A stretch of DNA of 38,804 nucleotides from Desulfatibacillum sp. (lineage in GTDB: Bacteria; Desulfobacterota; Desulfobacteria; Desulfobacterales; SpSt-501): positions 1-38,804 of the forward strand of contig DYEU01000017.1 in the NCBI GenBank assembly GCA_020725555.1. The letters are read 5' to 3'. The position numbers and the translations under genes are program-made. Positions within the stretch are counted from its first letter, which is position 1; each line of letters begins with the position of its first letter. The notes under the pieces were generated by a model, which did no database searches, was not told the origin of the DNA, and saw nothing but the letters and a program-made list of their open reading frames with translations. This document shows, piece by piece, positions 11,286 through 29,154 of this stretch.

Positions 11286-11310
11286 CGCGGCCCCGCCGGC
11301 GGGGCCGCGC
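11285..11310 (+). repeat. 26-base perfect palindrome (intercistronic hairpin)
   Basis: Arm GCGCGGCCCCGCC (11285-11297) is followed directly by its exact reverse complement GGCGGGGCCGCGC (11298-11310). As RNA this gives an 11-bp all-G/C stem with a CCGG loop. No T-run follows, so it is not a classical intrinsic terminator. It sits immediately after the dctM stop and 33 bases before the next start, a place where such stems protect upstream mRNA or reduce read-through. Confidence 0.75.
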
Positions 11311-11343
11311 CGTAACCCGAACGCGACGGTCAAGGAACAACGG

Positions 11344-12720
11344 ATGGAAACCTTCAGCGCGGAGCATGCCGAGGAACTCGCCGCCATCGTGGGCCGGGAG
11401 CGCTTTTCGACCGGCCTCTCCAGCCGCGAGCTTCACCTGCGCGACATCTCCTTTCACCGCGGGGTGCTGCCCGCCGGTATCGTCTGGCCGGAGTCGACCG
11501 AGGAGGTCGCGCGGCTGCTCGCCTGGGCCTACGCCCGCGAGGTCCCCGTGACCCCCTGGGGGGCGGGGACGAGCACGGAGGGAAACCCCGTGCCGACCCG
11601 CGGCGGGCTCGTCGTGGACATGACCCGCATGAACCGGGTGCTCGCGATCCGGCCGCAGGACCTCCAGGCCGACGTCCAGCCCGGCGTCCCCCGCAAGGAA
11701 TTGAACCGCCAGGCCGGCCGCCACGGGCTGTTCTTCCCGCCCGACCCCGGGGCCGACGCGACGATCGGCGGCATGATCGCCAACAACGCCTCCGGCGTCC
11801 AGACCGTGAAATACGGGGCGACCCGCGATTGGGTCCAGCGCCTGACCGTGGTCCTCCCGGGCGGCAGCGTGATCCGCACCGGGACGCTCGCGCCGAAGTC
11901 CTCGGCCGGCTTCGACCTGACGCGGCTCTTCGTCGGCTCCGAGGGGACCCTCGGCATCGTCACCGAGGCGACCCTGCGGCTGGCCGGCATCCCGGGCCAC
12001 ATCCTCGCCGCCGTGATCCTCTTTGCCGAGCTCGTCCCGGCCTCCGAGGCCGTCGCCGCGCTGATCGGCGCCGGGCTCGGCCCGGCGGCCCTCGAGCTTC
12101 TGCCCCCCGCCCTGATCCGGCTCATGAACCGCGAAAAGGACCTCGGGCTCGCCGAGACCCCTTCGCTCTTCTGCGAGTTTCACGCCGCAAGCGCCGCGGC
12201 GCTCGAGGAGACGGCCCGGCTGGCGCGCGAGATCTGCGAGGGCTTCGGGGCCCTGGAGTTCCGCCACGCCACCGCGGAGGCCGCGCGCAGGGAGCTCTGG
12301 CGCGCGCGCCACGAGGCCTGGGAGACGATCCACCGCGCCCACCCCCGCCAGGAGACGCTCATCGTGGACGCGGCGGTCCCCATCTCGCGTTACCCGGAGA
12401 TGGTGCAGTTCGCCCAGCGGGAGGTGGAGGGGCAGGGGGTCACGGGCTACGTCTTCGGCCACGCCGGCGACGGCAACCTCCACGTCGTCCTCGTGGGCGA
12501 CCCCGCCGACGCCGCGCAGTGGTCCCGGCTCGAGGCGGTGAACCAGGCCGTCGTCGAGCGGGCGATCGCCTGCGGCGGCACCTGCACCGGCGAGCACGGG
12601 GTCGGCATCGGCAAGCGCAAGTTCATGGAACTCGAGCACGGCGAGGCCTACCGCCTCATGCGGCGGATCAAGGACCTGATCGACCCCAAGGGGTTGATGA
12701 ACCCCGGGAAAATTTTCTAA
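11344..12720 (+). CDS. FAD-linked D-2-hydroxyacid dehydrogenase (LDHD/GlcD-like)
   Basis: 458 residues. An FAD-binding type-4 (VAO) domain covers about 40-240: VPVTPWGAGTSTEGNPVP, then PGADATIGGMIANNASGVQTVKYGATRD, then LFVGSEGTLGIVTEATL. A C-terminal FAD oxidase domain has GHAGDGNLHVV (near 373) and GGTCTGEHGVGIGKRKFM, both close to the single-subunit D-lactate dehydrogenase (LDHD) pattern. It has no cysteine-rich Fe-S extension. LDHD-type enzymes oxidise D-lactate and other D-2-hydroxyacids, including D-2-hydroxyglutarate in relatives. The start at 11344 follows AAGGAA; the earlier ATG at 11278 would translate through the palindrome and give an atypical Pro/Arg leader. The neighbouring transhydrogenase makes a D-2-hydroxyacid substrate plausible. 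Confidence 0.9.
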   Translation: METFSAEHAEELAAIVGRERFSTGLSSRELHLRDISFHRGVLPAGIVWPESTEEVARLLAWAYAREVPVTPWGAGTSTEGNPVPTRGGLVVDMTRMNRVLAIRPQDLQADVQPGVPRKELNRQAGRHGLFFPPDPGADATIGGMIANNASGVQTVKYGATRDWVQRLTVVLPGGSVIRTGTLAPKSSAGFDLTRLFVGSEGTLGIVTEATLRLAGIPGHILAAVILFAELVPASEAVAALIGAGLGPAALELLPPALIRLMNREKDLGLAETPSLFCEFHAASAAALEETARLAREICEGFGALEFRHATAEAARRELWRARHEAWETIHRAHPRQETLIVDAAVPISRYPEMVQFAQREVEGQGVTGYVFGHAGDGNLHVVLVGDPADAAQWSRLEAVNQAVVERAIACGGTCTGEHGVGIGKRKFMELEHGEAYRLMRRIKDLIDPKGLMNPGKIF

Positions 12721-12745
12721 ACACGGGGCAAGGAGGCCCGGGCGC

Positions 12746-13621
12746 ATGAACGTCGCCTTCATCGGCATGGGCACCATGGGGGCCGCCATGGCCCTGAACC
12801 TGCTCAAGGCGGGCCACGCGGTCGCGGTCCACAACCGCACCCGCGCGCGCGAGGAGCCCCTGGCCGCGGCCGGGGCGCGCCGCGCGGCCTCGCCCGCCGA
12901 GGCCGCGCGCGGGGCCGAGGTCGTCTGCACCTGCGTCAGCGACACCCCCGACGTCGAGGCGGTGATCCTCGGCGACTCCGGGGTGATCCACGGGGCGGCC
13001 CCCGGGACGACGGTCGTCGATCTCTCGACCATCCGCCCCGCGGCGGCCCGGGAGATCGCCGCCGCCCTCGCCCGCCGCGGCATCGCCTTCCTGGACGCCC
13101 CCGTCTCCGGCGGCTCCGAGGGCGCGCGCCTGGGGACGCTCTCGATCATGGTCGGCGGCGCGCCCGAGGCCGTGGCGCGCGCGATGCCCGTGCTGCAGGC
13201 CATGGGCAAGACCATCACCCACATCGGGCCGGTCGGCTCCGGCCAGATGACCAAGGCGATCAACCAGGTCATCCTCTGCGGCACCTACCTCGCGGTGGCC
13301 GAGGGGGTGGTGCTCGGCCTCAAGGCGGGGCTCGACATGGAGAAGGTCATCGCCGCGGTCTCGGGCGGCGCGGCCGGCTCCTGGGGCCTGACCCACCGCT
13401 CCGGCAACATGATCCAAAACCGCTACCCCCTCGGGTTCCGCGTGCGGCTGCACCGCAAGGACCTGGGGATCGCCCTCGAGGCCGCGCGCGAGCTGGGGGC
13501 CTTCGCCCCGCTGGCGGCGCTGGTCGAGCAGATCGAAAACGCCCTGATCGGCCAGGGCCTGGGCGACGAGGACGTCTCGGCCATGGCCCGCTGGATCCGC
13601 CGCAGCTCGGGCCTGGAGTGA
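12746..13621 (+). CDS. NAD(P)-dependent beta-hydroxyacid dehydrogenase (HIBADH/GarR family)
   Basis: 291 residues. The Rossmann motif is GMGTMG (7-12) with an N-R-T motif after the second strand (HNRTRAR), suggesting NADP preference. The family substrate motif is DAPVSGGSEGARLGTL and the catalytic lysine lies in GSGQMTKAINQ (about 171). A second conserved run, PLGFRVRLHRKDLGIALE, resembles 2-hydroxy-3-oxopropionate and succinic-semialdehyde/gamma-hydroxybutyrate reductases of this family. AAGGAGG precedes the ATG. In this cluster it may interconvert 4-hydroxybutyrate and succinic semialdehyde, or 3-hydroxyisobutyrate or glycerate with their oxo forms. The exact substrate is not decidable from sequence alone. 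Confidence 0.88.
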   Translation: MNVAFIGMGTMGAAMALNLLKAGHAVAVHNRTRAREEPLAAAGARRAASPAEAARGAEVVCTCVSDTPDVEAVILGDSGVIHGAAPGTTVVDLSTIRPAAAREIAAALARRGIAFLDAPVSGGSEGARLGTLSIMVGGAPEAVARAMPVLQAMGKTITHIGPVGSGQMTKAINQVILCGTYLAVAEGVVLGLKAGLDMEKVIAAVSGGAAGSWGLTHRSGNMIQNRYPLGFRVRLHRKDLGIALEAARELGAFAPLAALVEQIENALIGQGLGDEDVSAMARWIRRSSGLE

Positions 13622-13665
13622 ACGGCCGGCGGCGGACCGCCCCTTGCGGGGGAAAGGAGCCTGCG

Positions 13666-14943
13666 ATGCGTCTGGAAACCGCCTTCACCATGGACACCTC
13701 GAGCATCAAGTACGGCCGGGGCGCCACGCGCGAGATCGGCCACGACATGGAGGAGCTCGGCTGCCGCCGCGTGATGGTCGTGACCGACCCCGGCCTGAGG
13801 GAGAGCCTTCCCGTCGCGGTCACGATGGAGGCCCTGCGCGGCCGCGGGATCGACGCCGTGCTCTACGACGGGGCGCGGGTCGAGCCGACCGACCGCTCCT
13901 TCCGGGAGGCGATCGCCTTCGCGCAGGAGGGCCGCTTCGACGGCTACGTCGCCGTGGGCGGGGGCTCGAGCATCGACACCTGCAAAGCCGCCAACCTCTA
14001 CGCCACCCACCCCGCGGACTTCCTGGCCTACGTCAACCCGCCGATCGGCAAAGGGCTCCCCGTCCCCGGGCCGCTCCAGCCCATGCTCGCCGTGCCCACG
14101 ACCGCCGGCACCGGCAGCGAGACCACGGGGACGGCGATCTTCGATTTCCTCGAGATGGGCGCCAAGACCGGCATCGCGAGCCGCGCGCTGCGGCCCGTCC
14201 GCGGCATCATCGACCCGGACAACACGCGCACCATGCCGCGCATGGTGGCCGCCTGCACGGGCCTCGACCAGCTGACCCACGCCCTCGAGTCCCTCACGGC
14301 GCTGCCCTACCACCGCCGCCCGGCGGCCGAGCACCCGCGGCTGCGGCCGGCCTACCAGGGCGCAAACCCGATCAGCGACATCTGGGCCGCGCGCGCGGTC
14401 GAGATGATCGCCCGCAACCTGGTGCGCGCGGTCGAGCACCCCGAGGACGACGCGGCGCGCGGGGAGATCCTGCTCGCCGCCACCTACGCCGGCATCGGCT
14501 TCGGCAACGCCGGCGTGCACCTCGCCCACGGCATGTCCTATCCCGTCTCGGGGATGGTGCGCGATTACGTCCCGGAGGGCTACCCGCCCGGCCACCCGCT
14601 CGTCCCCCACGGCATGGCGGTTTGCCTCAACGCGCCGGCGGTCTTCCGCTTCACCGGGCCGGCCGCCCCCGAGCGGCACCTCGAGTGCGCGCGGCGGATG
14701 GGCTGCGACGTCGCGGGCGCCCGGCCGGAGGAGGCGGGCGAGATCCTCGCGGGGGCGCTGGTCGAGATCATGCGGCGCGTGGGCATGCCCAACGGCCTCG
14801 CCGCGGTGGGCTTCCGGCCCGAGGACGTGGATCGCCTGGTCGCGGGGACCCTCCCCCAGCACCGGGTGACCAAACTGTCCCCGCGGCCGGCCGGCGCGGA
14901 GGATCTGCGGCGGCTGTTCCTCGACTCGATGCGGCTGTGGTGA
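13666..14943 (+). CDS. Hydroxyacid-oxoacid transhydrogenase (ADHFE1-like iron alcohol dehydrogenase)
   Basis: 425 residues. It aligns by eye along its length with animal ADHFE1/HOT: RVEPTDRSFREAIAFAQ, YVAVGGGSSIDTCKAANLYA, PIGKG, VPTTAGTGSETTGTAIFD, PAYQGANPISDIWA, AGIGFGNAGVHLAHGMSYP and TLPQHRVTKLSPRP. Likely metal ligands are D201, H205, H288 and H315. Known HOT enzymes oxidise 4-hydroxybutyrate to succinic semialdehyde while reducing 2-oxoglutarate to D-2-hydroxyglutarate with bound NAD, needing no free cofactor. The ATG at 13666 follows GGAAAGGAG; an earlier frame-open start is weaker. With the LDHD-like flavoprotein upstream, the D-2-hydroxyglutarate product could be recycled (inference). 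Confidence 0.9.
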   Translation: MRLETAFTMDTSSIKYGRGATREIGHDMEELGCRRVMVVTDPGLRESLPVAVTMEALRGRGIDAVLYDGARVEPTDRSFREAIAFAQEGRFDGYVAVGGGSSIDTCKAANLYATHPADFLAYVNPPIGKGLPVPGPLQPMLAVPTTAGTGSETTGTAIFDFLEMGAKTGIASRALRPVRGIIDPDNTRTMPRMVAACTGLDQLTHALESLTALPYHRRPAAEHPRLRPAYQGANPISDIWAARAVEMIARNLVRAVEHPEDDAARGEILLAATYAGIGFGNAGVHLAHGMSYPVSGMVRDYVPEGYPPGHPLVPHGMAVCLNAPAVFRFTGPAAPERHLECARRMGCDVAGARPEEAGEILAGALVEIMRRVGMPNGLAAVGFRPEDVDRLVAGTLPQHRVTKLSPRPAGAEDLRRLFLDSMRLW

Positions 14944-14971
14944 CCGCCCGCCGCCCGGGGGGTAAAGGCCG

Positions 14972-16396
14972 ATGGCCGACAAGGCGTGCGACAACGAGCT
15001 CGAAGATCTCCGGCAGCGGCTCGACATGTACGAGCGGATCTTCGAGAGCATCTACAACGGCGCCATGGTCGTGGACGCCGCGGGCTTCATCACCCACTTC
15101 AACCGCCCCTACGGGCAGTTCCTGGGCGTGGACCCGGCCGCCCAGATCGGCCGGCACTGCACGGAGGCCGTCGAGAACTCGCGCATGCACATCGTGGCCC
15201 GCACCGGGGTCGCCGAGATCAACCACTCCCAGGTCATCCGCGGCCAGAAAATGGTCGTCCAGCGGATCCCGATCCTCAAGGACGGCCGGGTGATCGCCGT
15301 CTTCGGGCAGGTGATGTTCAAGGACGTGCGCGACGTCGCCAAGCTCGCCCGCGAGCTCTCGCGGCTCGAATCCAAGGTGAAGATCTACGAGGAGGAGCTC
15401 CTCCAGCTCCGCTCCACCCGCTTCACCTTCGAGAGCATCCTCGGCGACAGCGAGGCCCTCCAGGCGCTCAAGCGCGAGGCGATGCGGGCCGCCCAGAACA
15501 GCTTTCCCGTCCTGATCACCGGGGAGAGCGGCACCGGCAAGGAGATGTTCGCCCAGGCGATCCACCACGCGAGCGCCCGCCGCCTGGGTCCCTTCGTGCG
15601 CATCAACTGCGCGGCCATCCCGCGCGACCTCCTCGAATCCGAGCTCTTCGGCTACGAGAAGGGGGCCTTCACCGGCGCCCGCGCCGAGGGCAAACCCGGC
15701 AAGTTCGAGCTCGCCCACGAGGGCACCGTCTTTCTCGACGAGGTGGGGGACCTGCCGCTCGAGATGCAGCCGAAGCTCCTGCGGGCGATCGAGGACAAGG
15801 AATTCGAGCGCGTGGGCGGAACCCGGGTCGTGCGCTCGGACTTCCGCGTGATCGCCGCCACCAACCAGAACCTGGAGGCGATGCTCGCCGCGGGACGCTT
15901 CCGCAAGGACCTCTTCTACCGGCTGAACGTGGTCGCGCTCCACGTGCCGCCGCTGCGCGAACGGCCGGGCGACACGGTCGCCATCGCGCGCGCCTACCTC
16001 GCCCGCACGGCGCGGGAGGCCGGCCTGGGCGAGGTCGGCCTCGACCCCGAGGCCGAGAACGCCCTGCGGCGCTGGGAGTGGCCCGGCAACGTGCGCGAGC
16101 TGATCCACGTGCTCGAGCGCAGCCTGCACGCCCTGGAGGGCGACCGCATCCGCCTGGAGGATCTCCCCTTCCCCCTGCGGCGCAGCGCCGCCCGCGGATC
16201 CCCGCGCCGCAGCGCCTCCCTGCGCGAGCTGCAGTCGCAGGCCGAGCGGGAGCTCATCTGGAACACCCTGCGCGAGACGAACTTCCACAAGGTCCGCGCG
16301 GCGCGCCGCCTCGGCATCCACCGGACACTCCTCTACAAGAAAATGAAAAAGTACGGCCTGCCGCTCCGCCCGCGGCCGGAAGAGGCCGCCCCGTGA
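14972..16396 (+). CDS. PAS-domain sigma54-dependent transcriptional activator (Fis-type HTH)
   Basis: 474 residues. A single PAS sensor covers about 20-125 ([19 protein letters not shown]...), followed by a short coiled linker (125-150). The AAA+ sigma54 domain has Walker A GESGTGKE (184-191), the sigma54-contact loop GAFTGA (231-236) and Walker B VFLDEV (253-258). A Fis-like helix-turn-helix is at about 440-461 ([20 protein letters not shown]). There is no receiver domain, so it senses through PAS rather than by phosphorylation. It lies 28 bases after the transhydrogenase and probably controls the TRAP/dehydrogenase operon, although I found no GG-N10-GC sigma54 promoter in front of dctP. Confidence 0.93.
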
Positions 16397-16430
16397 GGGG
16401 GGAGGCCCCGCGCCGCCGCTCCGGCCGCGG

Positions 16431-16459
16431 TTGACAGCCTGCGCGCTTTTCGTTAGGGG
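16431..16459 (+). promoter_or_regulatory. Sigma70-type promoter upstream of hyuA-like gene
   Basis: Perfect -35 TTGACA at 16431-16436, 17-base spacer, weak -10 TAGGGG at 16454-16459 (GTTAGG would be a shorter-spaced alternative). GCGCTTT follows the -35 after six bases exactly as in the promoter at 8442. It lies 41 bases before the hyuA-like start in a 104-base gap. Confidence 0.5.
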
Positions 16460-16500
16460 GGAGGCAGGCGGTCTCGGGCAAACGCAACCGGGCGGACGGC

Positions 16501-18234
16501 ATGATCATCGGGCTGGATGTCGGGGGCACGCACACGGACGTCGTCCTGCTGGACCAGAGCGGCCTGCTCCGCCAGGCCAAGATCCCCACGGATCCCGCGG
16601 ACCTCTTCCGTTCCCTCTTCGCGGCCCTGGAGGCGGTCACGGCGGGCGTTCCGCCCGAGCGCATCCGCCGCATCGTGCTCTCCACCACCCTCACCACCAA
16701 CGCCGTCATCCAGGGGAACACCCCGCCGGTCGGCCTGATCGTCTCCGCCGGCCCCGGCATCGATCCCGAGGCCTTCCGCATGGGAGAGGCCTACGTCTGC
16801 GTGCGCGGCTCGATCGACCACCGCGGCCGCGAGATCGAGCCCCTCGACGAGGCCGAGGTCCGCCGCGCCGCCGCGCGCTTCCGGCGCGAGGGCATCCGCC
16901 AGGTGGGGATCGTCGGCAAGTTCTCGGTCCGCAACCCCGCCCACGAGCTCGCCATCCGCGAGCGGCTCGGGGAGGGGTTCGACGGCGTCTTTCTCGGCCA
17001 CCGCGTCTCCGGCCGCCTGAACTTCGCCCGCCGCATCGCGACCACCTACCTGAACGCCGCGGTGGACCCCCTGCACCGCTCGTTTTTCGAGGCCGTGCGC
17101 GCCAGCCTCGCCGAAAAGGGGCTGCACCTGCCGCTGCGGCTCCTCAAGGCCGACGGCGGCAACATGCGGCTCGAGGCCTCGCTCGAATGCCCCATCCAGA
17201 CCGTCCTCTCCGGGCCCGCGGCGAGCGTCATGGGGGCGGTGGCCGCGGCCGCGGGCGAAGGCGACGCCGTGGTCATGGACATCGGCGGGACGACGACCGA
17301 CCTCGCCGTCCTGATCGGCCCGGCGCCGGTCTTGAACCCCCACGGGATCACGATCGGCGCCTACCGCACGCTGATCCGCTCGCTGGAGACCCTCTCGATC
17401 GGCACCGGCGGCGACAGCGCCGTGCGGGTCGAGGACGGCCGCCTGGCGGTGGGGCCCGACCGCCGGGGCCCGGCGATGGTCTTCGGCGGCGCCCACCCCA
17501 CGCCGACCGACGCGATGGCCGCCCTGGGGATGCTGCCGCACCCGGCGCGCGAGCGCGCCTGCGAGGGGCTGAGGCCGCTTGCCGCGCGGCTCGGGCTCGA
17601 CCTCGACGCCTTCGCCCGCGCGGTCGTGGACACCGCCTGCCGCCAGATGCTCGCCGCGGCCGACCGGCTGGTCGAGGCCATCAACGCCCAGCCCGTCTAC
17701 ACCGTGCACGAGCTCAAGGAGGGGTACCGCGTCCGGCCGCGGGCGATCCTCGTCCTCGGGGGGCCCGCCCCCTACTTCGCCGCCGCCCTCCGGGCCTTCA
17801 CCCCGCTTGCGGTGCGCGTGGTCCCGCGCTGGGAGGTGGCCAACGCCATCGGCGCGGCCCTCGCCCGCACGACCTGCGAGGTCGAGTTCTTCGCCGACAC
17901 CGAGCGGCGCATCGCCTGCGCGCCGGCCGAGAATTTCCAGGAGGCGATCGCGCCGCCCTACGGCCTGAAGGACGCCACCGCGCGGGCGCTGGCGCTGCTG
18001 CGCGTCAAGGCGCTCGCCCGGGGCGCCAACCCCGATTTCCTGGAGATGGAAGTCGTCGAAGCCCAGGAATTCCACATGATCCGGGGCTTCCACACCACGG
18101 GCAAGAACCTGCGCGTGCGGGTGCAGGTCAAGCCGGGGCTGATCCACGGCTACGACGCGCTGCTCGCGCACCTCTCGGCCCCGGCGGACCCCCTCGCGCC
18201 CCGCGCGGCCGGGGAGGCCCTCCCCCCATGCTGA
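16501..18234 (+). CDS. Hydantoinase/oxoprolinase A-family protein (solitary)
   Basis: 577 residues, ATP-dependent hydantoinase A / oxoprolinase family with the ASKHA fold. Phosphate-binding loops are DVGGTHTD (6-13), STTLTTNAVIQG (about 60-71) and MDIGGTTTDLAVL (260-272); GIGTGGDSAVRV-like sequence follows near 301. Relatives act on 5-oxoproline, hydantoins or lactams, or form the ATPase subunit of acetone/acetophenone carboxylases. No HyuB-type partner follows, which is unusual for the well-studied enzymes, and the protein is shorter than HyuA-class proteins of about 690 residues. The ATG at 16501 has only a weak ribosome site. It overlaps the deacetylase-fold gene by 7 bases. Substrate unknown. 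Confidence 0.88.
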   Translation: MIIGLDVGGTHTDVVLLDQSGLLRQAKIPTDPADLFRSLFAALEAVTAGVPPERIRRIVLSTTLTTNAVIQGNTPPVGLIVSAGPGIDPEAFRMGEAYVCVRGSIDHRGREIEPLDEAEVRRAAARFRREGIRQVGIVGKFSVRNPAHELAIRERLGEGFDGVFLGHRVSGRLNFARRIATTYLNAAVDPLHRSFFEAVRASLAEKGLHLPLRLLKADGGNMRLEASLECPIQTVLSGPAASVMGAVAAAAGEGDAVVMDIGGTTTDLAVLIGPAPVLNPHGITIGAYRTLIRSLETLSIGTGGDSAVRVEDGRLAVGPDRRGPAMVFGGAHPTPTDAMAALGMLPHPARERACEGLRPLAARLGLDLDAFARAVVDTACRQMLAAADRLVEAINAQPVYTVHELKEGYRVRPRAILVLGGPAPYFAAALRAFTPLAVRVVPRWEVANAIGAALARTTCEVEFFADTERRIACAPAENFQEAIAPPYGLKDATARALALLRVKALARGANPDFLEMEVVEAQEFHMIRGFHTTGKNLRVRVQVKPGLIHGYDALLAHLSAPADPLAPRAAGEALPPC

Positions 18235-19583
18235 AGGCCAGGCACCGCGTCGGGCTCGTCTTCTTCCCGGCCTACGACTGGGCGATCCACCCGCAGCACC
18301 CCGAGCGCGAGGAGCGCCTGCTCTACACCCAGGACCAGATCCTCGAGGAGGGCCTCTTCGACGTCGAGGGCATCCTCGAGCTCAAGCCCGACCCCGTCGT
18401 GCTCGCCGACATCCAGCGCGTGCACTTCTGCGTGCCCGACCCCTGGCAGGTGGCGACCGAGTCCCATTTCATCAGCGCGGGCGGGGCGAAGACCGTCGGC
18501 ATGGCCGTCTGTGAGCACCGCGTCGACCGGGGCTTCGCCCTGGTGCGGCCGCCGGGGCACCACGCCATGCGGGTCGTCCACGGCTCGCGCGGGTTCTGCG
18601 CGATCAACATCGAGGCCATCATGATCGAGTTTCTGCGGCGGAAATACGGCATCCGCCGCGTGGCCGTCGTGGACACCGACTGCCATCACGGGGACGGGAC
18701 CCAGGACATCTACTGGCACGACCCCGACACCCTGTTCATCTCGCTCCACCAGGACGGCCGCACCCTCTACCCTGGGAGTGGCTTTCCCGACGAGCTGGGG
18801 GGGCCGAACGCCTTCGGCACCACGCTGAACATCCCGCTTCCGCCGCACACCGCCGAGGAGGGCTTTCTGCACGCCCTGCGCCGCGTCGTCCGGCCGGTGC
18901 TCGACGAATTCCAGCCGGAGCTCGTCGTGAACTCCGCCGGCCAAGACAACCACTACACCGACCCGATCACGAACATGAACTTTTCGGCGCGCGGCTACGC
19001 GCAGCTGACCGAGGAGCTCGGCGCCGACATCGCCGTGCTCGAGGGCGGCTACGCGATCGAGGGGGCGCTCCCCTACGTCAACGTGGGGATCCTCCTCGCC
19101 ATGGCGGGCCTGGACTACCGGCACGTCCGCGAGTCGGACTACGAGCGGCATCAGATCCGCCAGACCGCCGCGGTGACCGAGGCCGTGCACCGGGTCTGCG
19201 ACCTCGTGCTCTCCTGCTGGCAGAAACGGGACAAGCTCCGCGAGCAGGTGCTCGCCCGCGAAAACGCCTTCCGCCGCCGCCGCCGGATCTTCTACGACAC
19301 CGACGGCTTCACCGAGACCCAGCTCGAGGAGGTGACCCCCTGCGAGCGCTGCGGCGGGGCCCTGCGCATCGACTCGACCACGGACCGCGGCGCCCACATC
19401 CTCGCCGTGCACATCCCGCACCGCGCCTGCCCGGCCTGCCGCGACCGGGGGCTCGCCTGGTTCGACGAGGCCTCCCCGAAGCGCTTCGACCGCATCGTAC
19501 TCCAGGACGGGCCGGCCGACCGCTACACCGTCAAAGCCCGCGAAGCCGCGGGCGGATCGAAAGGGCCTTCGACCCATGGATGA
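18228..19583 (+). CDS. Histone-deacetylase-fold amidohydrolase with C-terminal Cys4 ribbon
   Basis: 451 residues. Residues about 1-325 form an arginase/deacetylase fold with all key residues: paired histidines H111-H112 (RPPGHHA), zinc ligands D151 and H153 (DTDCHHGDGTQ), D240 (SAGQDNHYTDP) and the transition-state Tyr Y275 (LEGGY). Bacterial members deacetylate acetylpolyamines, acetoin-pathway proteins or other small amides. After a basic helical linker (about 326-356) comes a C-terminal part with C372-x2-C375 and C401-x2-C404, a zinc-ribbon-like arrangement that I do not associate with this family. The ATG lies within the hyuA stop region and the stop lies within the kinase gene, so all three are coupled. 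Confidence 0.9.
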   Translation: MLKARHRVGLVFFPAYDWAIHPQHPEREERLLYTQDQILEEGLFDVEGILELKPDPVVLADIQRVHFCVPDPWQVATESHFISAGGAKTVGMAVCEHRVDRGFALVRPPGHHAMRVVHGSRGFCAINIEAIMIEFLRRKYGIRRVAVVDTDCHHGDGTQDIYWHDPDTLFISLHQDGRTLYPGSGFPDELGGPNAFGTTLNIPLPPHTAEEGFLHALRRVVRPVLDEFQPELVVNSAGQDNHYTDPITNMNFSARGYAQLTEELGADIAVLEGGYAIEGALPYVNVGILLAMAGLDYRHVRESDYERHQIRQTAAVTEAVHRVCDLVLSCWQKRDKLREQVLARENAFRRRRRIFYDTDGFTETQLEEVTPCERCGGALRIDSTTDRGAHILAVHIPHRACPACRDRGLAWFDEASPKRFDRIVLQDGPADRYTVKAREAAGGSKGPSTHG

Positions 19584-21108
19584 CCGGCAGCGCCTGACGC
19601 TGATCGAGCGGCTCCTCGAGGCCGCCGGCCTCGGAGCCGCCTTCGCCGACGAAGACGGGACCCTGCGCGGGGTCAGCCCGGCCTTTCATCGGATCCTGGG
19701 CGGGCGGCCGGGGGAGGCCCCCCCGCGGGATTTGGCCGGGTGCCTCGCCCCTGCGGAGCGGCCGGCCTTCGAGCGATTCCTGGCGGAGCTCCGGACCGCG
19801 GGGGAGGGGGCGGGCCTTCTGGAAACCGCCCTGCAGGCGGCCGGGGGCCCGCGGCCCGTGCTGCTGGCGGCGGCGGTCGTGCCGCCGGCAGGGGGGCTCC
19901 CCGGAGGCGCCGCCTTCCTCCTCAAGGACCGCTCCACGGAGGTTGAAGCCGAGGAGGAGCGCCGGCGGATCGCCGCCCACATGCAGCAGGCGCAGAAGAT
20001 GGAGGCGATCGGGACCCTGGCCGGCGGGCTCGCCCACGACTTCAACAACCTGCTCATGGGCATGCAGGGGAACCTCTCGCTGTTGCGCCTCAACAAGGAG
20101 AAGGACCACCCCGACCTCCCCTACCTGCAGAAGATCGAGGCCGCCGTCGAGCGCGCCTCCGAGCTCACGCGCCAGATCCTCGGCTTCGCCCGGGGCGGCA
20201 AGTACGACGTGCGCGTGACCGATCTCAACCGGCTCGTCGCGCAGACGGTCGATCTCTTCGGCAAAACCCGCAAGGAGCTCGACATCCGCAAGCGGCTCGC
20301 CCCGGAGCTGCGGCCGATCGAGGCCGACCAAAGCCAGATCCAGCAGGTGCTGCTCAATCTCCTCGTCAACGCCTGGCAGGCCCTGGGCGCGGGCGGAACC
20401 CTCGAGGTGGGGACCGAAAACGTCGAGGTCGCCGCAAACGACCCGGAGCGGCCGCCGGACGCCCCGCCCGGCCCCTACGTCCGCCTGGAGGTCCGCGACA
20501 GCGGCGAGGGCATGGAGGAGACGGTCCGCAAACGCATCTTCGAGCCGTTTTTCTCGACGCGTTCCCGGGCCGAGGCGAAGGGGCTCGGCCTCTCCGCCGC
20601 CTGGGGCATCGTGCGCGGCCACAACGGGTTCATCACCGTCGAAAGCCGCAAGGGCGAAGGCTCGACCTTCCGCGTCTACCTCCCGGCCGCGGGGAAAGCC
20701 CCCCCGCCCCCGCGCGCCGTCGCCGCGGCCCCCTCCCCGCCGCGCACGGTCCTGCTCGTCGAGGACGAGGAGATCGTCTGCGACATCGGCGAAAAGATGC
20801 TCCGGCGGCTGGGCTACGCGGTCCTCACCGCGCGCAGCGGCGAGGAGGCGCTCACCCTCTTCGCCGCGGGCCACCGCGAGATCGACCTCGTGATCCTGGA
20901 CCTGATCATGCCGGGCATCACCGGCGCCGAGGTCTTCGAGCGCCTCCGCGCCATCCGGCCCGATGTCCCCGTGTTGCTCTCGAGCGGCTTCAGCCTGGAC
21001 GGGGAGGCGATGGACCTGCTGCGGCGCGGGTGCCGGGGCTTCATCCAGAAGCCCTTCAGCCTCGATCAGCTGCGCGCGAAAATCCAGGAAATCACCGCGG
21101 CCCGCTGA
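19576..21108 (+). CDS. Hybrid sensor histidine kinase with C-terminal receiver
   Basis: 510 residues with no obvious membrane segment, so probably cytoplasmic. A PAS-like region covers 10-120. HisKA follows with phospho-accepting H154 in GGLAHDFNNLL. HATPase has N-box NLLVNAWQAL (261-270), G1 DSGEGM (308-313), F-box FEPFFSTR and G2 GLGLS (336-340). A linker rich in Pro/Ala (371-389) leads to a receiver domain at 390-508 with D442 as phosphorylation site (VILDLIMPGITG) and a late KPF (492-494). It overlaps the deacetylase gene by 8 bases, so it seems to be made with the two enzymes. No DNA-binding response regulator is adjacent. Confidence 0.92.
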   Translation: MDDRQRLTLIERLLEAAGLGAAFADEDGTLRGVSPAFHRILGGRPGEAPPRDLAGCLAPAERPAFERFLAELRTAGEGAGLLETALQAAGGPRPVLLAAAVVPPAGGLPGGAAFLLKDRSTEVEAEEERRRIAAHMQQAQKMEAIGTLAGGLAHDFNNLLMGMQGNLSLLRLNKEKDHPDLPYLQKIEAAVERASELTRQILGFARGGKYDVRVTDLNRLVAQTVDLFGKTRKELDIRKRLAPELRPIEADQSQIQQVLLNLLVNAWQALGAGGTLEVGTENVEVAANDPERPPDAPPGPYVRLEVRDSGEGMEETVRKRIFEPFFSTRSRAEAKGLGLSAAWGIVRGHNGFITVESRKGEGSTFRVYLPAAGKAPPPPRAVAAAPSPPRTVLLVEDEEIVCDIGEKMLRRLGYAVLTARSGEEALTLFAAGHREIDLVILDLIMPGITGAEVFERLRAIRPDVPVLLSSGFSLDGEAMDLLRRGCRGFIQKPFSLDQLRAKIQEITAAR

Positions 21109-21200
21109 ACGGCGGGCGGAAACGTCCGGTTCGTTCCGCATCGCCGCGCGCGAAACGGCGCATACGTCTGACGACGCGGCCGCCTCATCCAGGAGCCTCG

Positions 21201-22958
21201 ATGAATTCACCTGAGTGCGGGAAAGAGGAATTGTTATTCGATTGCCGGCGCCTCTTGGACTCCGCCCACAACGGCATCGTGGTCATCGACCGTAAAGGGA
21301 TAATCCGGTTTTACAACCGCGCCGCACGCAGCATTTTCAACGATGGCGACCGGCCGGTCATCGGGGAGCATTTCCGGGACGTCCGCCCGGAGGCTTGGCC
21401 GGAGTTCCGTCGCGTGCTGGAGACGGGTTTGCCGCAGATCGGGAAAAAAATCGAGCTGCCCCAAGCCACCATCATCGCCAACCGGGCGCCGATCCGCTGC
21501 CAAGGCAAGGTCATCGGGGTCATCTCGATCTTCCAGGACATTTCCGAATACGAAACGCTCATTTCGCAGCTGCAGGCCTATCGGCAGATCAAGGGGGAAC
21601 TCGAGGCCATCTTCGAATCCTCTTACGACGGCCTCTACATCACCGACGGCCGAGCCAACACCCTGCGGGTCAACAAAGCCTACGAGCGGATCACCGGCCT
21701 TTCGGGTCGCTTGCTGATCGGCCGCAACATGCGGGATCTCGTCAAGGAGAAAGTCTTCGATTCCTCGGTGACCCTCGAAGTGCTGAAGAGAAAAGAACCG
21801 GTGACCCTGATCCAGCGGATCCAGGGCCGCAAGGAAGTCATGGTGACCGGGAGCCCCATCGTGGACGAAAAGGGGGAAATCGCCTTCGTGGTCACCAACG
21901 TGCGCGACATCACCGAATTGAATCGTTTGAAGGCGGATCTGGAGCGCGCCCGCCGGATCAGCTCGCGGATGGCGGAATACATGCGGGAACAGAAAGGACT
22001 GGAACGAGCGCTCGATAAAATCATCGTCAAAAGCCCGAAAATGATCCAGGTGCTGAAGACGGCGGTCCAGGTGGCCAAAACCGACACCTCCGTCCTCCTC
22101 TACGGTGAATCCGGCGTGGGCAAAAGCATGATGGCCGATTTGATCCACCGTCTGAGCCCCCGGAAGAACAAACCGCTGGTCCGGATTCACTGCGGGGCGA
22201 TCCCCGACCCGTTGATCGAAAGCGAACTCTTCGGCTACGAGCGGGGGGCCTTCACCGGAGCGGCGTGGAGCGGAAAGGCCGGTCTGGTCGAAACGGCCCA
22301 TGGGGGCACGCTGGTTCTGGATGAGGTGGCCGAGCTGAGTTTGTCCGCCCAAGTGAAGCTGCTGGAAGTGATCGAGAACAAAACGTTCACCCGCCTGGGG
22401 GCGACCGTCCCGACCCGCGTGGATGTGCGGGTCATCGCCGCCACCCACCAGGACCTGGAGAAACGGATCGGTCAGGGAAGCTTTCGACAGGATCTTTTCT
22501 ACCGCCTGAACGGCGTGCCCATCGAAATTCCTCCGCTGCGCGAGCGGCCCGAAGACATTGCCCCGATCGCCCTCAGCTCGCTTGAAAAGCTCAATCGCGC
22601 CCACGGGTTCCAAAAACGCCTGAGCGCCGCGGCGCTGGATGCTTTGTGCAGGTACTCCTACCCCGGAAACATCCGCGAACTGATCCACATCGTTGAACGA
22701 ATGTTCACGATGAGTGAGGGGGAAACCATAGACGCGGAAGATCTCCCCTGGGAAATCCGCAGCGGGGTGCCTGCGTCTTCTCGAGTCTGGCGCAAAGGCA
22801 TGAGCTTGGCACGGGCGGTCGAACAGTTCGAGGAGGAGGTCATCCGTGAAGCGCTCCGACAGAGCGGCAGCGCCGAAGAGGCGGCACAGGTGCTGGGAAT
22901 CCATTATACGACGCTCTGGCGCAAGGCAAAAAAATATGCCCTCTCATTGCAAAAATGA
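21201..22958 (+). CDS. Double-PAS sigma54-dependent transcriptional activator (Fis-type HTH)
   Basis: 585 residues. PAS1 covers about 15-118 and PAS2 about 132-240, followed by a helical linker. The AAA+ domain has Walker A GESGVGKS (302-309), GAFTGA (349-354) and Walker B LVLDEV (371-376). The Fis-like HTH is at 558-579 (EEAAQVLGIHYTTLWRKAKKY). It has no receiver domain. The ATG at 21201 follows AGGAG; a long upstream open frame is a shadow of the kinase gene. Codon use is markedly less GC-rich than upstream (AAA, GAA, TTG common), and this gene opens the low-GC segment. A sigma54 promoter lies 161 bases beyond its stop, so it is the likely regulator of the liv operon. Confidence 0.93.
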   Translation: MNSPECGKEELLFDCRRLLDSAHNGIVVIDRKGIIRFYNRAARSIFNDGDRPVIGEHFRDVRPEAWPEFRRVLETGLPQIGKKIELPQATIIANRAPIRCQGKVIGVISIFQDISEYETLISQLQAYRQIKGELEAIFESSYDGLYITDGRANTLRVNKAYERITGLSGRLLIGRNMRDLVKEKVFDSSVTLEVLKRKEPVTLIQRIQGRKEVMVTGSPIVDEKGEIAFVVTNVRDITELNRLKADLERARRISSRMAEYMREQKGLERALDKIIVKSPKMIQVLKTAVQVAKTDTSVLLYGESGVGKSMMADLIHRLSPRKNKPLVRIHCGAIPDPLIESELFGYERGAFTGAAWSGKAGLVETAHGGTLVLDEVAELSLSAQVKLLEVIENKTFTRLGATVPTRVDVRVIAATHQDLEKRIGQGSFRQDLFYRLNGVPIEIPPLRERPEDIAPIALSSLEKLNRAHGFQKRLSAAALDALCRYSYPGNIRELIHIVERMFTMSEGETIDAEDLPWEIRSGVPASSRVWRKGMSLARAVEQFEEEVIREALRQSGSAEEAAQVLGIHYTTLWRKAKKYALSLQK

Positions 22959-23329: not shown

Positions 23330-24580
23330 ATGAAAAGCCGCAAAATCGCCTTATGGATTGTTTTGATGCTCGTGGTATTCCTCCCCTCGCTGGGTTTTGC
23401 TCAGGAGAAGGTGATCCGCATCGGGGCGCTCTACCCCATGACGGGGCGGTCGGGACTCTACGGCATGGACTCCGTCGCCGCCGCCGAAATGGCGATCGAT
23501 GAAATCAACGCCAAGGGCGGCGCCGCGGGATACAAGCTCGACATCATCTTCACCGACAGCAAATCCAAGCCTGCCTACGCCGTCCGGGTCGCCGAGCGCT
23601 ACATTACGGAGGACAAGGTTCACTTCCTTTTCGGGGTGGTCAGTTCGGCGGTGGGATTGGCCGTGACGGAAATTTCCCGGCAAAACAAGGTCATCTTCAT
23701 CGGAACCGATCACGCGGCCACCGAACTGACGCTCGACAACTTTCAGCCTTACTATTTCCGCGTCTCCAACAACACCTTCCAGTCCATGACTGCCGGCGCC
23801 CTCTACCTGAAGGAGCTCCAGAAAGAAAAGCCCTGGAAGACGATCTCCTATATCGGCCCCGATTACGCCTACGGCCACAGCCAGCTGGACGAGATTCAAT
23901 ACAACCTGAAACGATTCGGCGTCGATTTCCAGCTCGTCAGCAAATACCTGCCCAAGCTCTACGAACCCGACTACACGAGCTTCATCACCTCGCTGATCAA
24001 GGACAAGCCCGACGTGCTGGTTTCCGGGTTCTGGGGCGGGGATACGGTGGCTTTCATCAAACAGGCCAAAGCCTACGGGCTGTTTGAAAAAATGCTTTAC
24101 TTCCACCCGGATGCGGGAGGGAATTACGAGGTCATGAGCGCCCTTGGAGCGGAGATGCCCGCCGGGCTCGTGCTCTCCGCCCGCCATCACAACAACTGGC
24201 CCGACACGGAACTCAACCGCCGCTACGTCGCCGAATTCAAACGCCGTACCGGCCGCTATCCCACCTATGCCGCCGAGGGGGCCTATGCCGGCATCTATGC
24301 CATCGCGCGGGCGGTCGAAAAGGTGGGCACCCCCGACAACACCGAGGCCCTCGTCAAGGCGTTGGAGGGGTTGCAAATCAAGCTGCCGGAAGACCCCGAC
24401 GGGTTCACCTCCTACATCGATCCTCAGACCCATCAAATCGTCCAAGTACAGGCGATCGGCGTGAGTGTGCCGGACGACAACTTCCCTCCCGCCAAAATGA
24501 TGCTCGGCAAATGGAAGGTGTACAAAGCCGAGGATCTTCTGCCGCCGAAGGAGCTGATCGAGAAACGGTTGAAGAAATGA
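23330..24580 (+). CDS. livJ: Branched-chain-type ABC transporter substrate-binding protein (LivJ-like)
   Basis: 416-residue periplasmic receptor of the type-I amino-acid/amide fold (Peripla_BP_6). A signal peptide covers about residues 1-24 (MKSRK, hydrophobic core, GFA cleavage region). The mature start IRIGALYPMTGRSGLYGMDSV is the family hallmark, followed by AAEMAIDEINAKGG and a central VSNNTFQSMTAGALYL. Relatives bind branched-chain amino acids, amides, urea or aromatic and short-chain acids, so the ligand is not fixed by family alone. The company of alcohol and aldehyde oxidoreductases favours a non-amino-acid ligand (inference). The start is set by GAGGAG shortly upstream. It is first in the sigma54-driven operon. 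Confidence 0.9.
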   Translation: MKSRKIALWIVLMLVVFLPSLGFAQEKVIRIGALYPMTGRSGLYGMDSVAAAEMAIDEINAKGGAAGYKLDIIFTDSKSKPAYAVRVAERYITEDKVHFLFGVVSSAVGLAVTEISRQNKVIFIGTDHAATELTLDNFQPYYFRVSNNTFQSMTAGALYLKELQKEKPWKTISYIGPDYAYGHSQLDEIQYNLKRFGVDFQLVSKYLPKLYEPDYTSFITSLIKDKPDVLVSGFWGGDTVAFIKQAKAYGLFEKMLYFHPDAGGNYEVMSALGAEMPAGLVLSARHHNNWPDTELNRRYVAEFKRRTGRYPTYAAEGAYAGIYAIARAVEKVGTPDNTEALVKALEGLQIKLPEDPDGFTSYIDPQTHQIVQVQAIGVSVPDDNFPPAKMMLGKWKVYKAEDLLPPKELIEKRLKK

Positions 24581-24598
24581 GGGATCGCCGAGTCGCGC

Positions 24599-24620
24599 GC
24601 CCCCGGCGTCCGCCGGGGGC
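24599..24620 (+). repeat. livJ-livH intercistronic hairpin
   Basis: GCCCCCGGCG (24599-24608) and its exact complement CGCCGGGGGC (24611-24620) are separated by TC, giving about nine stable G/C pairs. No T-run follows. The site lies 18 bases after the livJ stop. Such stems commonly stabilise the binding-protein message relative to downstream transporter genes. Confidence 0.7.
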
Positions 24621-24647
24621 GCCCTGGCGCCCACCGGAGGGACCTCC

Positions 24648-25535
24648 ATGGACTTCGCCTTCCTCGCCACCCAGATGGTGAGCGGTTTTTCCCTCGCGAC
24701 CTTGCTGTTTCTGAATGCCAGCGGGTTGACGCTCATTTTCGGCGTCGGACGGATCTTCAACTTCGCCCACGGCTCGTTTTACATGCTGGGGGCCTACTTC
24801 GGATATCAGGTGTCCGCCGTCTGGGGCCTGCCGTTCTGGCCGGCGATCCTCGTCGCGGGCGCCGCCGCCGGCATCGTCGGCTCAGCCTCCGAATATCTTT
24901 TTCTCCGCCGCATCTACGGCAGACCGCACGAAGGCGGGTTCCAGATCCTCCTCACCTACTGCCTGATTCTCATCTTTGACGATCTGGTCAAAATGATCTG
25001 GGGAAGCGAGTACAAGTCGATCGCCAAGCCCCCCGGGTTTCTCGGCGCCGTTCAGGTCGGGGATGTGTTCATCCCCACTTACAACCTGGCCATTATCGCC
25101 GTCGGCCTGCTCGTGGTCCTGGCGGCGTGGTGGATCCTCTCGCGCACCCGCGCCGGCCGCATTGCGCGGGCCTCGGCCGTCGACCGGGAAATTCTAGGAT
25201 GCCTGGGGGTCAACGTCCCCCTCACCCTGACGGTGGTTTTTGGCCTGGCGACCGCCCTGGGCGGCATGACCGGCGCCTTGGCCGCCCCCCTGCGGTCGGT
25301 GACCCCGGGCGCGGGTATCGAAATCATCATCGACTCGCTGATCGTGGTGGTGCTCGGCGGAATGGGCAATTTCTGGGGAGCCTGGTTCGGGGCCATCCTC
25401 CTCGGGGAAGTCAATGCGTTCGCCGTAGCCTTCGTTCCGGAGTGGTCTTCCTTATTCAGCTACATCGTGATGGTGCTGACGCTCATCTTTCGGCCGGAAG
25501 GGTTGTTCGCTCCGGCGCGGATACGAAAGGCGTGA
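24648..25535 (+). CDS. livH: Branched-chain-type ABC transporter permease LivH
   Basis: 295-residue inner-membrane subunit with about eight hydrophobic segments. The N-terminus has NASGLTLIFGVGRIFNFAHGSFYMLGAY, the classic LivH start. The EAA-type cytoplasmic loop near residue 165-180 (RTRAGRIARASAVDREILGCLGVNV) contacts the ATPases. Late conserved blocks are ALGGMTGALAAPLRSVTPG and VVVLGGMGNFWGAWFGAILLG. Start ATG follows GGAGG, which can itself pair with CCTCC just before the ATG and so may be partly masked. It is two bases from livM. Confidence 0.94.
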   Translation: MDFAFLATQMVSGFSLATLLFLNASGLTLIFGVGRIFNFAHGSFYMLGAYFGYQVSAVWGLPFWPAILVAGAAAGIVGSASEYLFLRRIYGRPHEGGFQILLTYCLILIFDDLVKMIWGSEYKSIAKPPGFLGAVQVGDVFIPTYNLAIIAVGLLVVLAAWWILSRTRAGRIARASAVDREILGCLGVNVPLTLTVVFGLATALGGMTGALAAPLRSVTPGAGIEIIIDSLIVVVLGGMGNFWGAWFGAILLGEVNAFAVAFVPEWSSLFSYIVMVLTLIFRPEGLFAPARIRKA

Positions 25536-25537
25536 CC

Positions 25538-26503
25538 ATGGATCTGCCGCGCCGCTACAAGTTCGGCCTGCTCTGGACCGCCGGGTTGCTTGTCTTCGCC
25601 CTCGTGCCGCTTCTCATGACCTCCCGCTACCAGATGAACCTGGCGGGGCACATTTTGGTCTGGGGGCTTTTTGCGGTCTCGTTCAACATGCTCTGGGGGG
25701 TCACCGGAATGCTCTCCTTCGGGCAAGCGCTCTACTACGGGATCGGAGCCTACAGCGTCGGCCTGCTGGTGACCCGGGTCGGCGCCGCATGGTTTTTTCC
25801 CGCTCTGGGGATCGGCTTGGCCACGGCCGCCCTCATCTCCCTGCTCGTCGGCTTGCTGGTCATCCGCATGACCGGCGTCTATTTCACCATGCTGACGCTC
25901 GCCTTCGCCCAGCTCGCCTATCAAGTGACGCTCAAATGGCGGGACCTGACCGGCGGCGACGACGGCATCCAGGGCATCATCCCTCCCGGCCTGCTGGCTG
26001 ACAAAACCTTTTACTATTACGTCGTCCTGGCGGTCGTCTTTTTTTCCATCTGGGTCCTCAAACGGATGGCCTACTCCCCCTTCGGACTCGTCCTGCGCTG
26101 CATTCAACAAAACCCCGAAAGGGTGCGCTTCATCGGGCGCAGCGTCCGGATGAACCAGTTGCGCATCTATGTCATCTCCTCTCTGTTTGCGGCCGCGGCC
26201 GGGGCCCTGATGGCCGGAATGGACAGCTCCATTCATCCGGACATGCTTTACTGGACAACCTCGGGCGAGGTCATCCTGATGTCGGTGCTGGGCGGGATCA
26301 ACCGGTTTTTCGGGCCGTTCATCGGGGCGATCGTTCTCATCCTCCTCGAAGACGTGATCGGCGCCAAAACGGAATTCTGGCCGATCGTCATCGGGAGCGT
26401 CATCCTGGTCATCGTGATTCTCTTTCCCCGCGGCGTGGTCGGCGAAGCGCAACATCTCTGGAGTCGCTTCCGGGGAGACAGCAGCCAGAGGAGTCCGGCA
26501 TGA
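25538..26503 (+). CDS. livM: Branched-chain-type ABC transporter permease LivM
   Basis: 321-residue second permease with eight to ten hydrophobic segments. It has the LivM signature HILVWGLFAVSFNMLWGVTGMLSFGQALYYGIGAY, then RMTGVYFTMLTLAFAQL and the EAA-like loop SPFGLVLRCIQQNPERVRFIGRSV. The C-terminus has SGEVILMSVLGGINRFFGPFIGA. The ATG at 25538 has AAAGG upstream; a longer open frame reaching back to 25127 is a shadow of livH. It overlaps livG by 4 bases (ATGA). It forms the heterodimeric channel with LivH. Confidence 0.94.
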   Translation: MDLPRRYKFGLLWTAGLLVFALVPLLMTSRYQMNLAGHILVWGLFAVSFNMLWGVTGMLSFGQALYYGIGAYSVGLLVTRVGAAWFFPALGIGLATAALISLLVGLLVIRMTGVYFTMLTLAFAQLAYQVTLKWRDLTGGDDGIQGIIPPGLLADKTFYYYVVLAVVFFSIWVLKRMAYSPFGLVLRCIQQNPERVRFIGRSVRMNQLRIYVISSLFAAAAGALMAGMDSSIHPDMLYWTTSGEVILMSVLGGINRFFGPFIGAIVLILLEDVIGAKTEFWPIVIGSVILVIVILFPRGVVGEAQHLWSRFRGDSSQRSPA

Positions 26504-27255
26504 ATGCCCTTCTTCGCGTCGAGCAGCTGCGCAAAGCATTCGGCGGTCTCAAGGTCACCGACGAGGTGAGCTTTTCCATTCGGCCTCAGGAAATCGCGGC
26601 CATCATCGGCCCCAACGGCGCCGGAAAGACCACGCTCTTCAACCAGATCACCGGGCAGCTTCCGCCGGACGGCGGGCGGATCCGTTTTGAAGAGGTCGAT
26701 CTGGTCGGCCGCAGTCCCCAGGATATCGTGCGCCTTGGGATCGGCCGTTCCTTCCAGATCGCCTCGATTTTTCCCGACGAGAGCGTTCGGGACAACCTTC
26801 TCGCCGCATGCCTATCCCGGCTCAACCAGACCCGTCGCCTCTGGCGTCCCTACACTTCGCATTTGCAGGCCGGCGAGGAGGCGATGGCCATCCTCGCCAG
26901 CCTGGGGTTGGAATCCCAAGCGAACCGGCCGGCTTACGAACTCGCGCACGGCGACCAGAAGCTGCTGGACATCGGCATCGCCCTGGCGTTGCGCCCCAAG
27001 CTGCTCCTGATGGACGAGCCGACGGCCGGCATGTCGCCCGAGGAACGGCAACGGACAAGGACGCTCATCAAAAAGCTCTGGCAAGAGTACCGGTTGACCC
27101 TGGTGTTCATCGAACACGACATGGACATGGTCTTTGGCATCGCCGAAAGAATCTTCGTCCTCAACCACGGTCGGCTGATCGCCGAAGGGGCTCCGGAATC
27201 CATCCGCGCCAACCGGGACGTCATCACCGCCTACCTCGGGGAGGAAACCGGATGA
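26500..27255 (+). CDS. livG: Branched-chain-type ABC transporter ATPase LivG
   Basis: 251 residues. Walker A GPNGAGKTT is at 37-45. The LivG-specific block LGIGRSFQIASIFPDESVRDNL follows at about 80-100. The signature is degenerate as usual in LivG (LAHGDQKLLDIG), then Walker B LLLMDEPTAGMSPEE and EHDMDMVFGIAERIFVLNHG. It pairs with LivF on the cytoplasmic face. Overlaps of 4 bases at both ends (livM and livF) show tight coupling. Confidence 0.94.
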   Translation: MNALLRVEQLRKAFGGLKVTDEVSFSIRPQEIAAIIGPNGAGKTTLFNQITGQLPPDGGRIRFEEVDLVGRSPQDIVRLGIGRSFQIASIFPDESVRDNLLAACLSRLNQTRRLWRPYTSHLQAGEEAMAILASLGLESQANRPAYELAHGDQKLLDIGIALALRPKLLLMDEPTAGMSPEERQRTRTLIKKLWQEYRLTLVFIEHDMDMVFGIAERIFVLNHGRLIAEGAPESIRANRDVITAYLGEETG

Positions 27256-27956: not shown

Positions 27957-27974
27957 TTCGGAAAGGAGAGCGCC

Positions 27975-29132: not shown

Positions 29133-29154
29133 CCGGGATCCCCGGAGGCCTGTC

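Follow-up and report, generated by a model that had tools for sequence, protein, structure and literature searches.

A solitary HyuA-type ATPase gene that overlaps a gene for a histone deacetylase (HDAC)-fold protein raises the question of what the two enzymes do together. This arrangement was found on contig DYEU01000017.1 of Desulfatibacillum sp. (assembly GCA_020725555.1), in a stretch of 38,804 bp which was analysed whole and is referred to here as the window. The source genome is 3.59 Mb in 35 contigs with an estimated completeness of 100%, and its closest relatives are Desulfobacterales. The two core genes are both on the plus strand. HyuA, an ASKHA ATPase of 577 amino acids, is encoded at 16501-18234 and the HDAC-fold zinc amidohydrolase of 451 amino acids, called HDAC below, at 18228-19583. 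A gene for a hybrid histidine kinase/receiver follows on the same strand (19576-21108). An earlier note, made from the sequence of the window, had described three overlapping open reading frames (ORFs), and this was confirmed. The end of HyuA (18234) and the start of HDAC (18228) share 7 bases, and the end of HDAC (19583) and the start of the kinase (19576) share 8. Its assignment of the three products to the HyuA, deacetylase and hybrid kinase families was borne out by Pfam matches. As a pair, HyuA and HDAC point to a system of two proteins for amide-bond cleavage that has yet to be described.

Co-inheritance of HyuA and HDAC

Two samples were compared. An even draw across the phylum comprised 297 genomes, in which the presence of HDAC or HyuA was scored at E<=1e-60. 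A named-record set comprised the 80 top-ranking of 512 relatives, each with a Desulfo- or delta-proteobacterial title; these are the closest loci and form a biased sample. All genome counts were taken within one phylum, from genomes related to one another, and are non-independent, and the enrichment p values given below are uncorrected for kinship.

HDAC was present in 83 of the 297 phylum genomes (about 28%) and HyuA in 84, with an overlap of 83. No genome in the draw had HDAC without HyuA. The sole genome with HyuA only (G238) carried a partial gene (residues 1-423) whose start lies 12 bases from the end of a contig. HyuA and HDAC adjoined on the same strand in 74 of the 83 genomes. Both were also kept where they were unlinked, on different contigs or far apart, in the seven genomes of genus g75 (G076, G109, G138, G165, G190, G235 and G256) and in G219; in G272 they were split at contig ends. 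The retention of both genes when unlinked is the strongest sign of shared function. The suggestion of the earlier note that a solitary HyuA and a zinc amidohydrolase form a unit was thus upheld by their co-occurrence in 83 of the 84 genomes having either, and the pair is kept across the phylum far more widely than among close relatives.

In the named-record set the upstream count was restricted to the 70 of 80 loci having at least 2 kb 5' of HDAC. HyuA ended within 700 bases 5' of HDAC in 65 of these 70 loci, or 66 when the overlap in L094 is included. There was no HyuA directly 5' of HDAC in L045, L051, L052 and L089. Among the seven genomes whose HDAC locus lacked a visible HyuA, which include L042, L046 and L072 with their short upstream stretches, HyuA was found elsewhere in six; HDAC lies at the locus end in L042 and L046, where the two genes may still be linked. 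The gap between HyuA and HDAC was 13 bases or less in 37 of 86 linked loci, where large overlaps reflect start-codon choice. The recurrent HyuA-HDAC order is beyond chance, and there is good support for the genes being coupled. On plasmids, 166 records matched HDAC, none of them across more than 80% of its length, and no HyuA neighbour was seen at the two annotated plasmid-borne HDAC-fold proteins that were inspected.

The two proteins and the absence of HyuB

HyuA matched the Hydant_A_N (PF05378) and Hydantoinase_A (PF01968) domains. Its best NCBIfam match was the caprolactamase alpha subunit CapA (NF050156) with 118.4 bits, far under the cut-off of 1000, and it scored well under equivalog cut-offs. 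The alignment sets kept 94 of 102 HyuA and 96 of 113 HDAC matches, near full length and stop-free. The ASKHA nucleotide motifs D6xGGT and D260xGGTTTD were invariant in 30 aligned HyuA sequences. The AlphaFold2 (AF2) model of HyuA had a predicted local distance difference test score (pLDDT) of 87.6. Most of the model could be aligned to caprolactamase alpha (6yra; Z 28.3, root mean square deviation (rmsd) 5.2, 518 aligned residues) and to acetophenone carboxylase (5l9w; Z 28.0, rmsd 5.5, 524 aligned). The C-terminal region had no Pfam match above cut-off.

HyuA enzymes are known together with HyuB, and in caprolactamase, 5-oxoprolinase and N-methylhydantoinase HyuA needs HyuB. The HyuB profile (Hydantoinase_B, PF02538) had no matches in the window's genome. 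This also answers the question, raised in the earlier note, of whether a HyuB homologue elsewhere is the true partner. The same search covered 80 of the 83 HDAC genomes, with PF02538 present in 28 and absent from 52. As HyuB is missing here although HyuA enzymes are known to depend on it, the window's HyuA probably has a different partner. HDAC is the gene that travels with HyuA among the genes examined.

HDAC matched Hist_deacetyl (PF00850) with an E value of 2.5e-61 and 208 bits, and its start agreed with the consensus of its relatives, which begins MLxAKHKTGLVFFPA. The motifs RPPGHH (107-112), DTDCHHGDG, GQDNH and EGGY (272-275) were invariant across 30 aligned HDACs. So were four cysteines (C372, C375, C401 and C404) forming a CxxC...CxxC pattern in an extra C-terminal region. 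The residues HH, DxH, D and Y, which we take to be the active-site residues of the HDAC superfamily, were all present and invariant. P246-I247-T248 aligned with the PIS gatekeeper of bacterial polyamine deacetylases. The AF2 model of HDAC had a pLDDT of 79.8 and matched HDAH (2vcg) with Z 35.1 and rmsd 2.5 over 311 aligned residues, involving model residues 1-335 only. The closest solved folds were bacterial HDAC-like amidohydrolases and lysine deacetylases. Fold alignments stopped short of residues 338-451, although this does not prove that the fold there is new, and the C-terminal region had no Pfam match above cut-off. Judged by motifs and models, the active sites and folds of both HyuA and HDAC look intact. 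According to the main text of a survey of bacterial deacylases (PMC11532494), the RPP and XGGY motifs, here RPPGHH and EGGY, mark robust deacetylases. The survey assigns HdaH examples to cluster 1. The marks of acetylpolyamine amidohydrolases (cluster 4) are a PIS gatekeeper and a head-to-head dimer formed via the L2 loop.

Candidate functions of the pair

The account we tentatively prefer is that HyuA and HDAC form an obligate two-protein, HyuB-free unit. HyuA, as an ASKHA ATPase of the caprolactamase/acetophenone-carboxylase family, would activate an amide with ATP by O-phosphorylation, as its relatives do. The zinc HDAC-fold enzyme would then hydrolyse the activated amide, doing for this HyuA what HyuB does elsewhere. 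The extra C-terminal region of HDAC is a candidate docking module, and the substrate would probably be an amide formed by an amine resembling lysine or a polyamine. Several points weigh against this account. HDAC-type deacetylation requires no ATP, so HyuA and HDAC may act on different bonds. The draft genome of L052 has HDAC, and a search of it for HyuA was negative. The HDAC model is of low confidence at residues 14-20, 27-33 and 111-115, the last within an active-site motif. The distance-matrix correlation of HyuA with HDAC (0.75, 46 loci) was only slightly above those of HDAC with EpmA (0.71) and HyuA with EpmA (0.65); being weak, it was dropped as a main argument. No tested pathway gene was present in every pair genome, and for this reason the proposed substrate class rests on the neighbours of a minority. 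A bolder version of the obligate unit, in which HDAC replaces HyuB in a new ATP-driven deacylase/lactamase class that acts on lysine-type amides and is tied to modification of elongation factor P (EF-P) in the window's order, is rather unlikely. If true, it would mean an HDAC depending on a dedicated ATPase, and we know of no bacterial HDAC with such a partner. A functional link to EpmA would also open EF-P maintenance in that order to study.

The main alternative, and the model of the earlier note, is that two separate enzymes serve one short pathway and form no complex. HyuA would first carry out ATP-driven activation or ring opening of a cyclic amide and HDAC would then remove an acyl group, or the reverse. 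This is possible, at roughly one chance in a handful or slightly better, as near-perfect co-inheritance, including that of unlinked genes, fits a shared pathway equally and both active sites look intact. However, HyuA proteins are not known to finish ring opening without HyuB, which is absent here, and the gene overlap favours a complex, without proving one. A less probable option is that HDAC, as an enzyme of the HDAH/AcuC type, deacetylates protein lysines of metabolic enzymes. HyuA would then be its ATP-dependent activator or sensor and would not itself work on the same substrate. The closest solved folds and the RPPGHH and EGGY motifs agree with this. ASKHA ATPases also include enzyme activators, and 2-hydroxyacyl-CoA dehydratase activators were among the fold matches of HyuA. 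Their Z scores were about 15-16 compared to 28 for the substrate-phosphorylating HyuA family, with which HyuA aligns mostly full-length, and this speaks for a substrate-phosphorylating enzyme rather than an activator.

The remaining two explanations come from neighbouring genes, and each has only a slim chance of being right. The earlier note had overlooked EpmA, the EF-P (R)-beta-lysine ligase, as a frequent gene 3' of HDAC in the window's order. Its presence there suggests a role in EF-P maintenance, in which the pair would remove or edit acyl-lysines (e.g., at EF-P Lys34 or the (R)-beta-lysyl arm) or free beta-lysine from an acylated store. The start of EpmA lay no more than 600 bases past HDAC in 43 of the 67 named-record loci with enough downstream room for neighbour counts, and lay farther downstream in seven. 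It was enriched in the phylum draw, where it was scored at E<=1e-60 (45/83 HDAC genomes vs 44/214 others, Fisher p 4e-8). The window's genome has both EpmA and an EF-P with a lysine-bearing PGKGQ loop. Yet EpmA lay directly 3' of HDAC in only four of the 45 phylum-draw genomes with both (G134, G161, G186 and G232), all of the window's order; 38 of the 83 HDAC genomes lacked EpmA and 44 genomes had EpmA without the pair. In 19 genomes or more, as read by eye, the neighbour of EpmA was instead an EpmB-like aminomutase, and at least seven of these carried the pair elsewhere. EpmA as an obligate partner was rejected, being neither necessary nor sufficient for the pair. A role in polyamine metabolism is similarly improbable. 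Here HDAC would be an acyl-polyamine deacetylase and HyuA would handle a related carboxyspermidine-pathway compound, either an amide or a lactam. In its favour, genes named by model as speA and nspC came after HyuA-HDAC-EpmA in L069, and those for carboxynorspermidine synthase and nspC did so in L055. In loci of genus g75, where HyuA is elsewhere, carboxynorspermidine synthase lay 3' of HDAC in L110, L112, L114, L116 and L130, and nspC lay near HDAC in L114, L130, L132 and L134, with one unassigned ORF between in L114. The gene nspC was enriched (36/83 HDAC genomes vs 38/214 others, p 1e-5), and the PIT residues of HDAC align with the PIS gatekeeper. However, 47 of the 83 HDAC genomes were without nspC, and speA was found in eight of 40 HDAC genomes vs four of 40 others, both sets hand-chosen. 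Agmatinase (TIGR01230) was equally common in both groups (63/83 vs 159/214), and replacement of agmatinase as a general role was rejected on these counts. None of speA, nspC and agmatinase was found in the window's genome by the models used, leaving it without these genes of the carboxyspermidine pathway, and a universal polyamine role was rejected on this ground. Both EF-P modification and polyamine synthesis are thereby excluded as a universal role of the pair. What the neighbours suggest is at most a substrate class, amides whose amine part is lysine-like or polyamine-like.

Regulators, flanking genes and relation to known systems

The earlier note had described the third gene as a PAS kinase made with the pair. 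Matches to HisKA, HATPase_c and Response_reg support its classification as a two-component hybrid sensor kinase. The weak N-terminal PAS domain remained sub-threshold (PF00989, 20.5 bits vs a cut-off of 22.6, with residues 1-125 scanned alone). The kinase was not a constant third member. An HK-like gene occurred within 1600 bases 3' of HDAC in just 10 of the 67 loci, and within 60 bases in six (L024-L029). The kinase is outside the conserved core, confined to near relatives, and is an accessory gene. A PAS and sigma-54 activator gene (14972-16396, plus strand) lies directly 5' of HyuA and is a candidate regulator. Its homologues in L024 (91% identical) and in L030 and L031 (67-68%) were each just 5' of HyuA. 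A second gene of this type downstream (21201-22958, plus strand; scanned as 21195-22958) has an uncertain start codon and is a possible regulator. The kinase and the sigma-54 activators would provide putative lineage-specific regulation of the HyuA-HDAC unit. The single promoter placed at 16431 by the earlier note was not recovered. A sigma-70 scan of 16200-21400 gave no hit, with 0.1 expected, and the TTGACA at 16431 sits within a terminator-like hairpin, of which one was found vs 1.9 expected by chance. A regular-expression search of 16001-16500 for -24/-12 boxes gave no match.

EpmA is encoded in the window at 36115-37014 on the plus strand, about 16.5 kb 3' of HDAC. It passed TIGR00462 with 301 bits (cut-off 286.9), as did five of the EpmA proteins encoded 3' of HDAC in named-record loci. 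Its identity to the EpmA found 3' of HDAC in L030, L032, L036, L069 and L081 was 52-60%. The gene order in L030 and L032 was HyuA-HDAC-HK-EpmA, with HyuA partial in L032. EpmA started 1.3-1.8 kb past the HDAC end in L042, L046, L065 and L067, leaving space for an intervening gene. No genome of the 297 passed the EpmB cut-off (TIGR03821), although the window's EpmA passes TIGR00462, and the wording EpmB-like is used here for this reason. The only EpmB/lysine-aminomutase-like match in the window's genome at E<=1e-20 was G000:C12:64688-65647 (253.7 bits, under the EpmB cut-off). In the window EpmA is flanked by minus-strand ABC-transporter/HlyD-like genes, assigned by translation, and by a small heat-shock-like ORF (37067-37579) and a Lon-like ORF (from 37620), both read by eye.

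Other genes were seen on both sides of the operon. Lactate/2-hydroxyacid genes at 4445-5851 and 9981-16396 include those for a LutB/LldF-type Fe-S protein, a TRAP transporter large subunit, a GlcD-like FAD oxidase, a 2-hydroxy-3-oxopropionate-reductase-like enzyme and an Fe-alcohol dehydrogenase, followed by the PAS/sigma-54 activator. The region 23330-30918 encodes a branched-chain-type ABC transporter with a periplasmic binding protein, a second Fe-alcohol dehydrogenase and an aldehyde ferredoxin oxidoreductase-like protein. This may be a module, next to the operon, for taking up and oxidising a substrate. In L123 (8018-10227), L124 and L125 (family f42) a patatin-like ORF, read by eye, lay directly 3' of HyuA-HDAC.

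Each protein is a member of a known superfamily. The obligate HyuB-free HyuA-HDAC pairing is the new part, as far as the literature was searched. The pair occurs in more than a quarter of the sampled phylum genomes and is kept when unlinked; it represents a specific function yet to be accounted for in sulfate reducers and their relatives. Literature searches found no description of a HyuA-HDAC pairing without HyuB, no paper on hydantoinase and histone deacetylase in sulfate reducers and none that combines hydantoinase with polyamine and histone deacetylase-like proteins or with carboxyspermidine and putrescine. A full-text search found no paper joining EpmA, EF-P and deacetylase in Desulfo- bacteria. 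The terms Desulfo, hydantoinase, EpmA and zinc ribbon are all absent from the main text of the deacylase survey (PMC11532494). Deacetylase and hydantoinase do not occur in the available portion of a D. vulgaris fitness paper (PMC10102598), and the accessible part of PMC5764234 has nothing on the HyuA-HDAC pair.

Compared to known systems, HyuA resembles CapAB and the related HyuA/HyuB enzymes (5-oxoprolinase, N-methylhydantoinase and acetophenone/acetone carboxylases) in its Hydant_A_N and Hydantoinase_A domains, DxGGT motifs and fold. It is shorter (577 amino acids compared to about 700), carries GGDS where the two best-matching PDB chains carry GGGS, and comes from a genome in which no HyuB was found. 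The pair loci share with the EpmA/EpmB genes of EF-P modification a frequent third gene, EpmA, in the window's order, but phylum-wide EpmA and the pair each also occur without the other and their adjacency is rare. HDAC is similar to the acetylpolyamine amidohydrolases (ApaH, cluster 4) in the alignment of DPIT with DPIS and in EGGY, and some loci adjoin polyamine genes. It is nearer to HDAH and HDAC6 in fold and sequence, however, and the three tested polyamine enzymes are missing from its own genome. At one motif it has GQDNH where HDAC6 CD2 has GFDAA. The likeness to the bacterial HDAC-like amidohydrolases HDAH, Kdac1 and HdaH lies in the fold over residues 1-335, RPPGHH and EGGY. Unlike these, the window's HDAC adds a C-terminal CxxC...CxxC region and is tied to HyuA.

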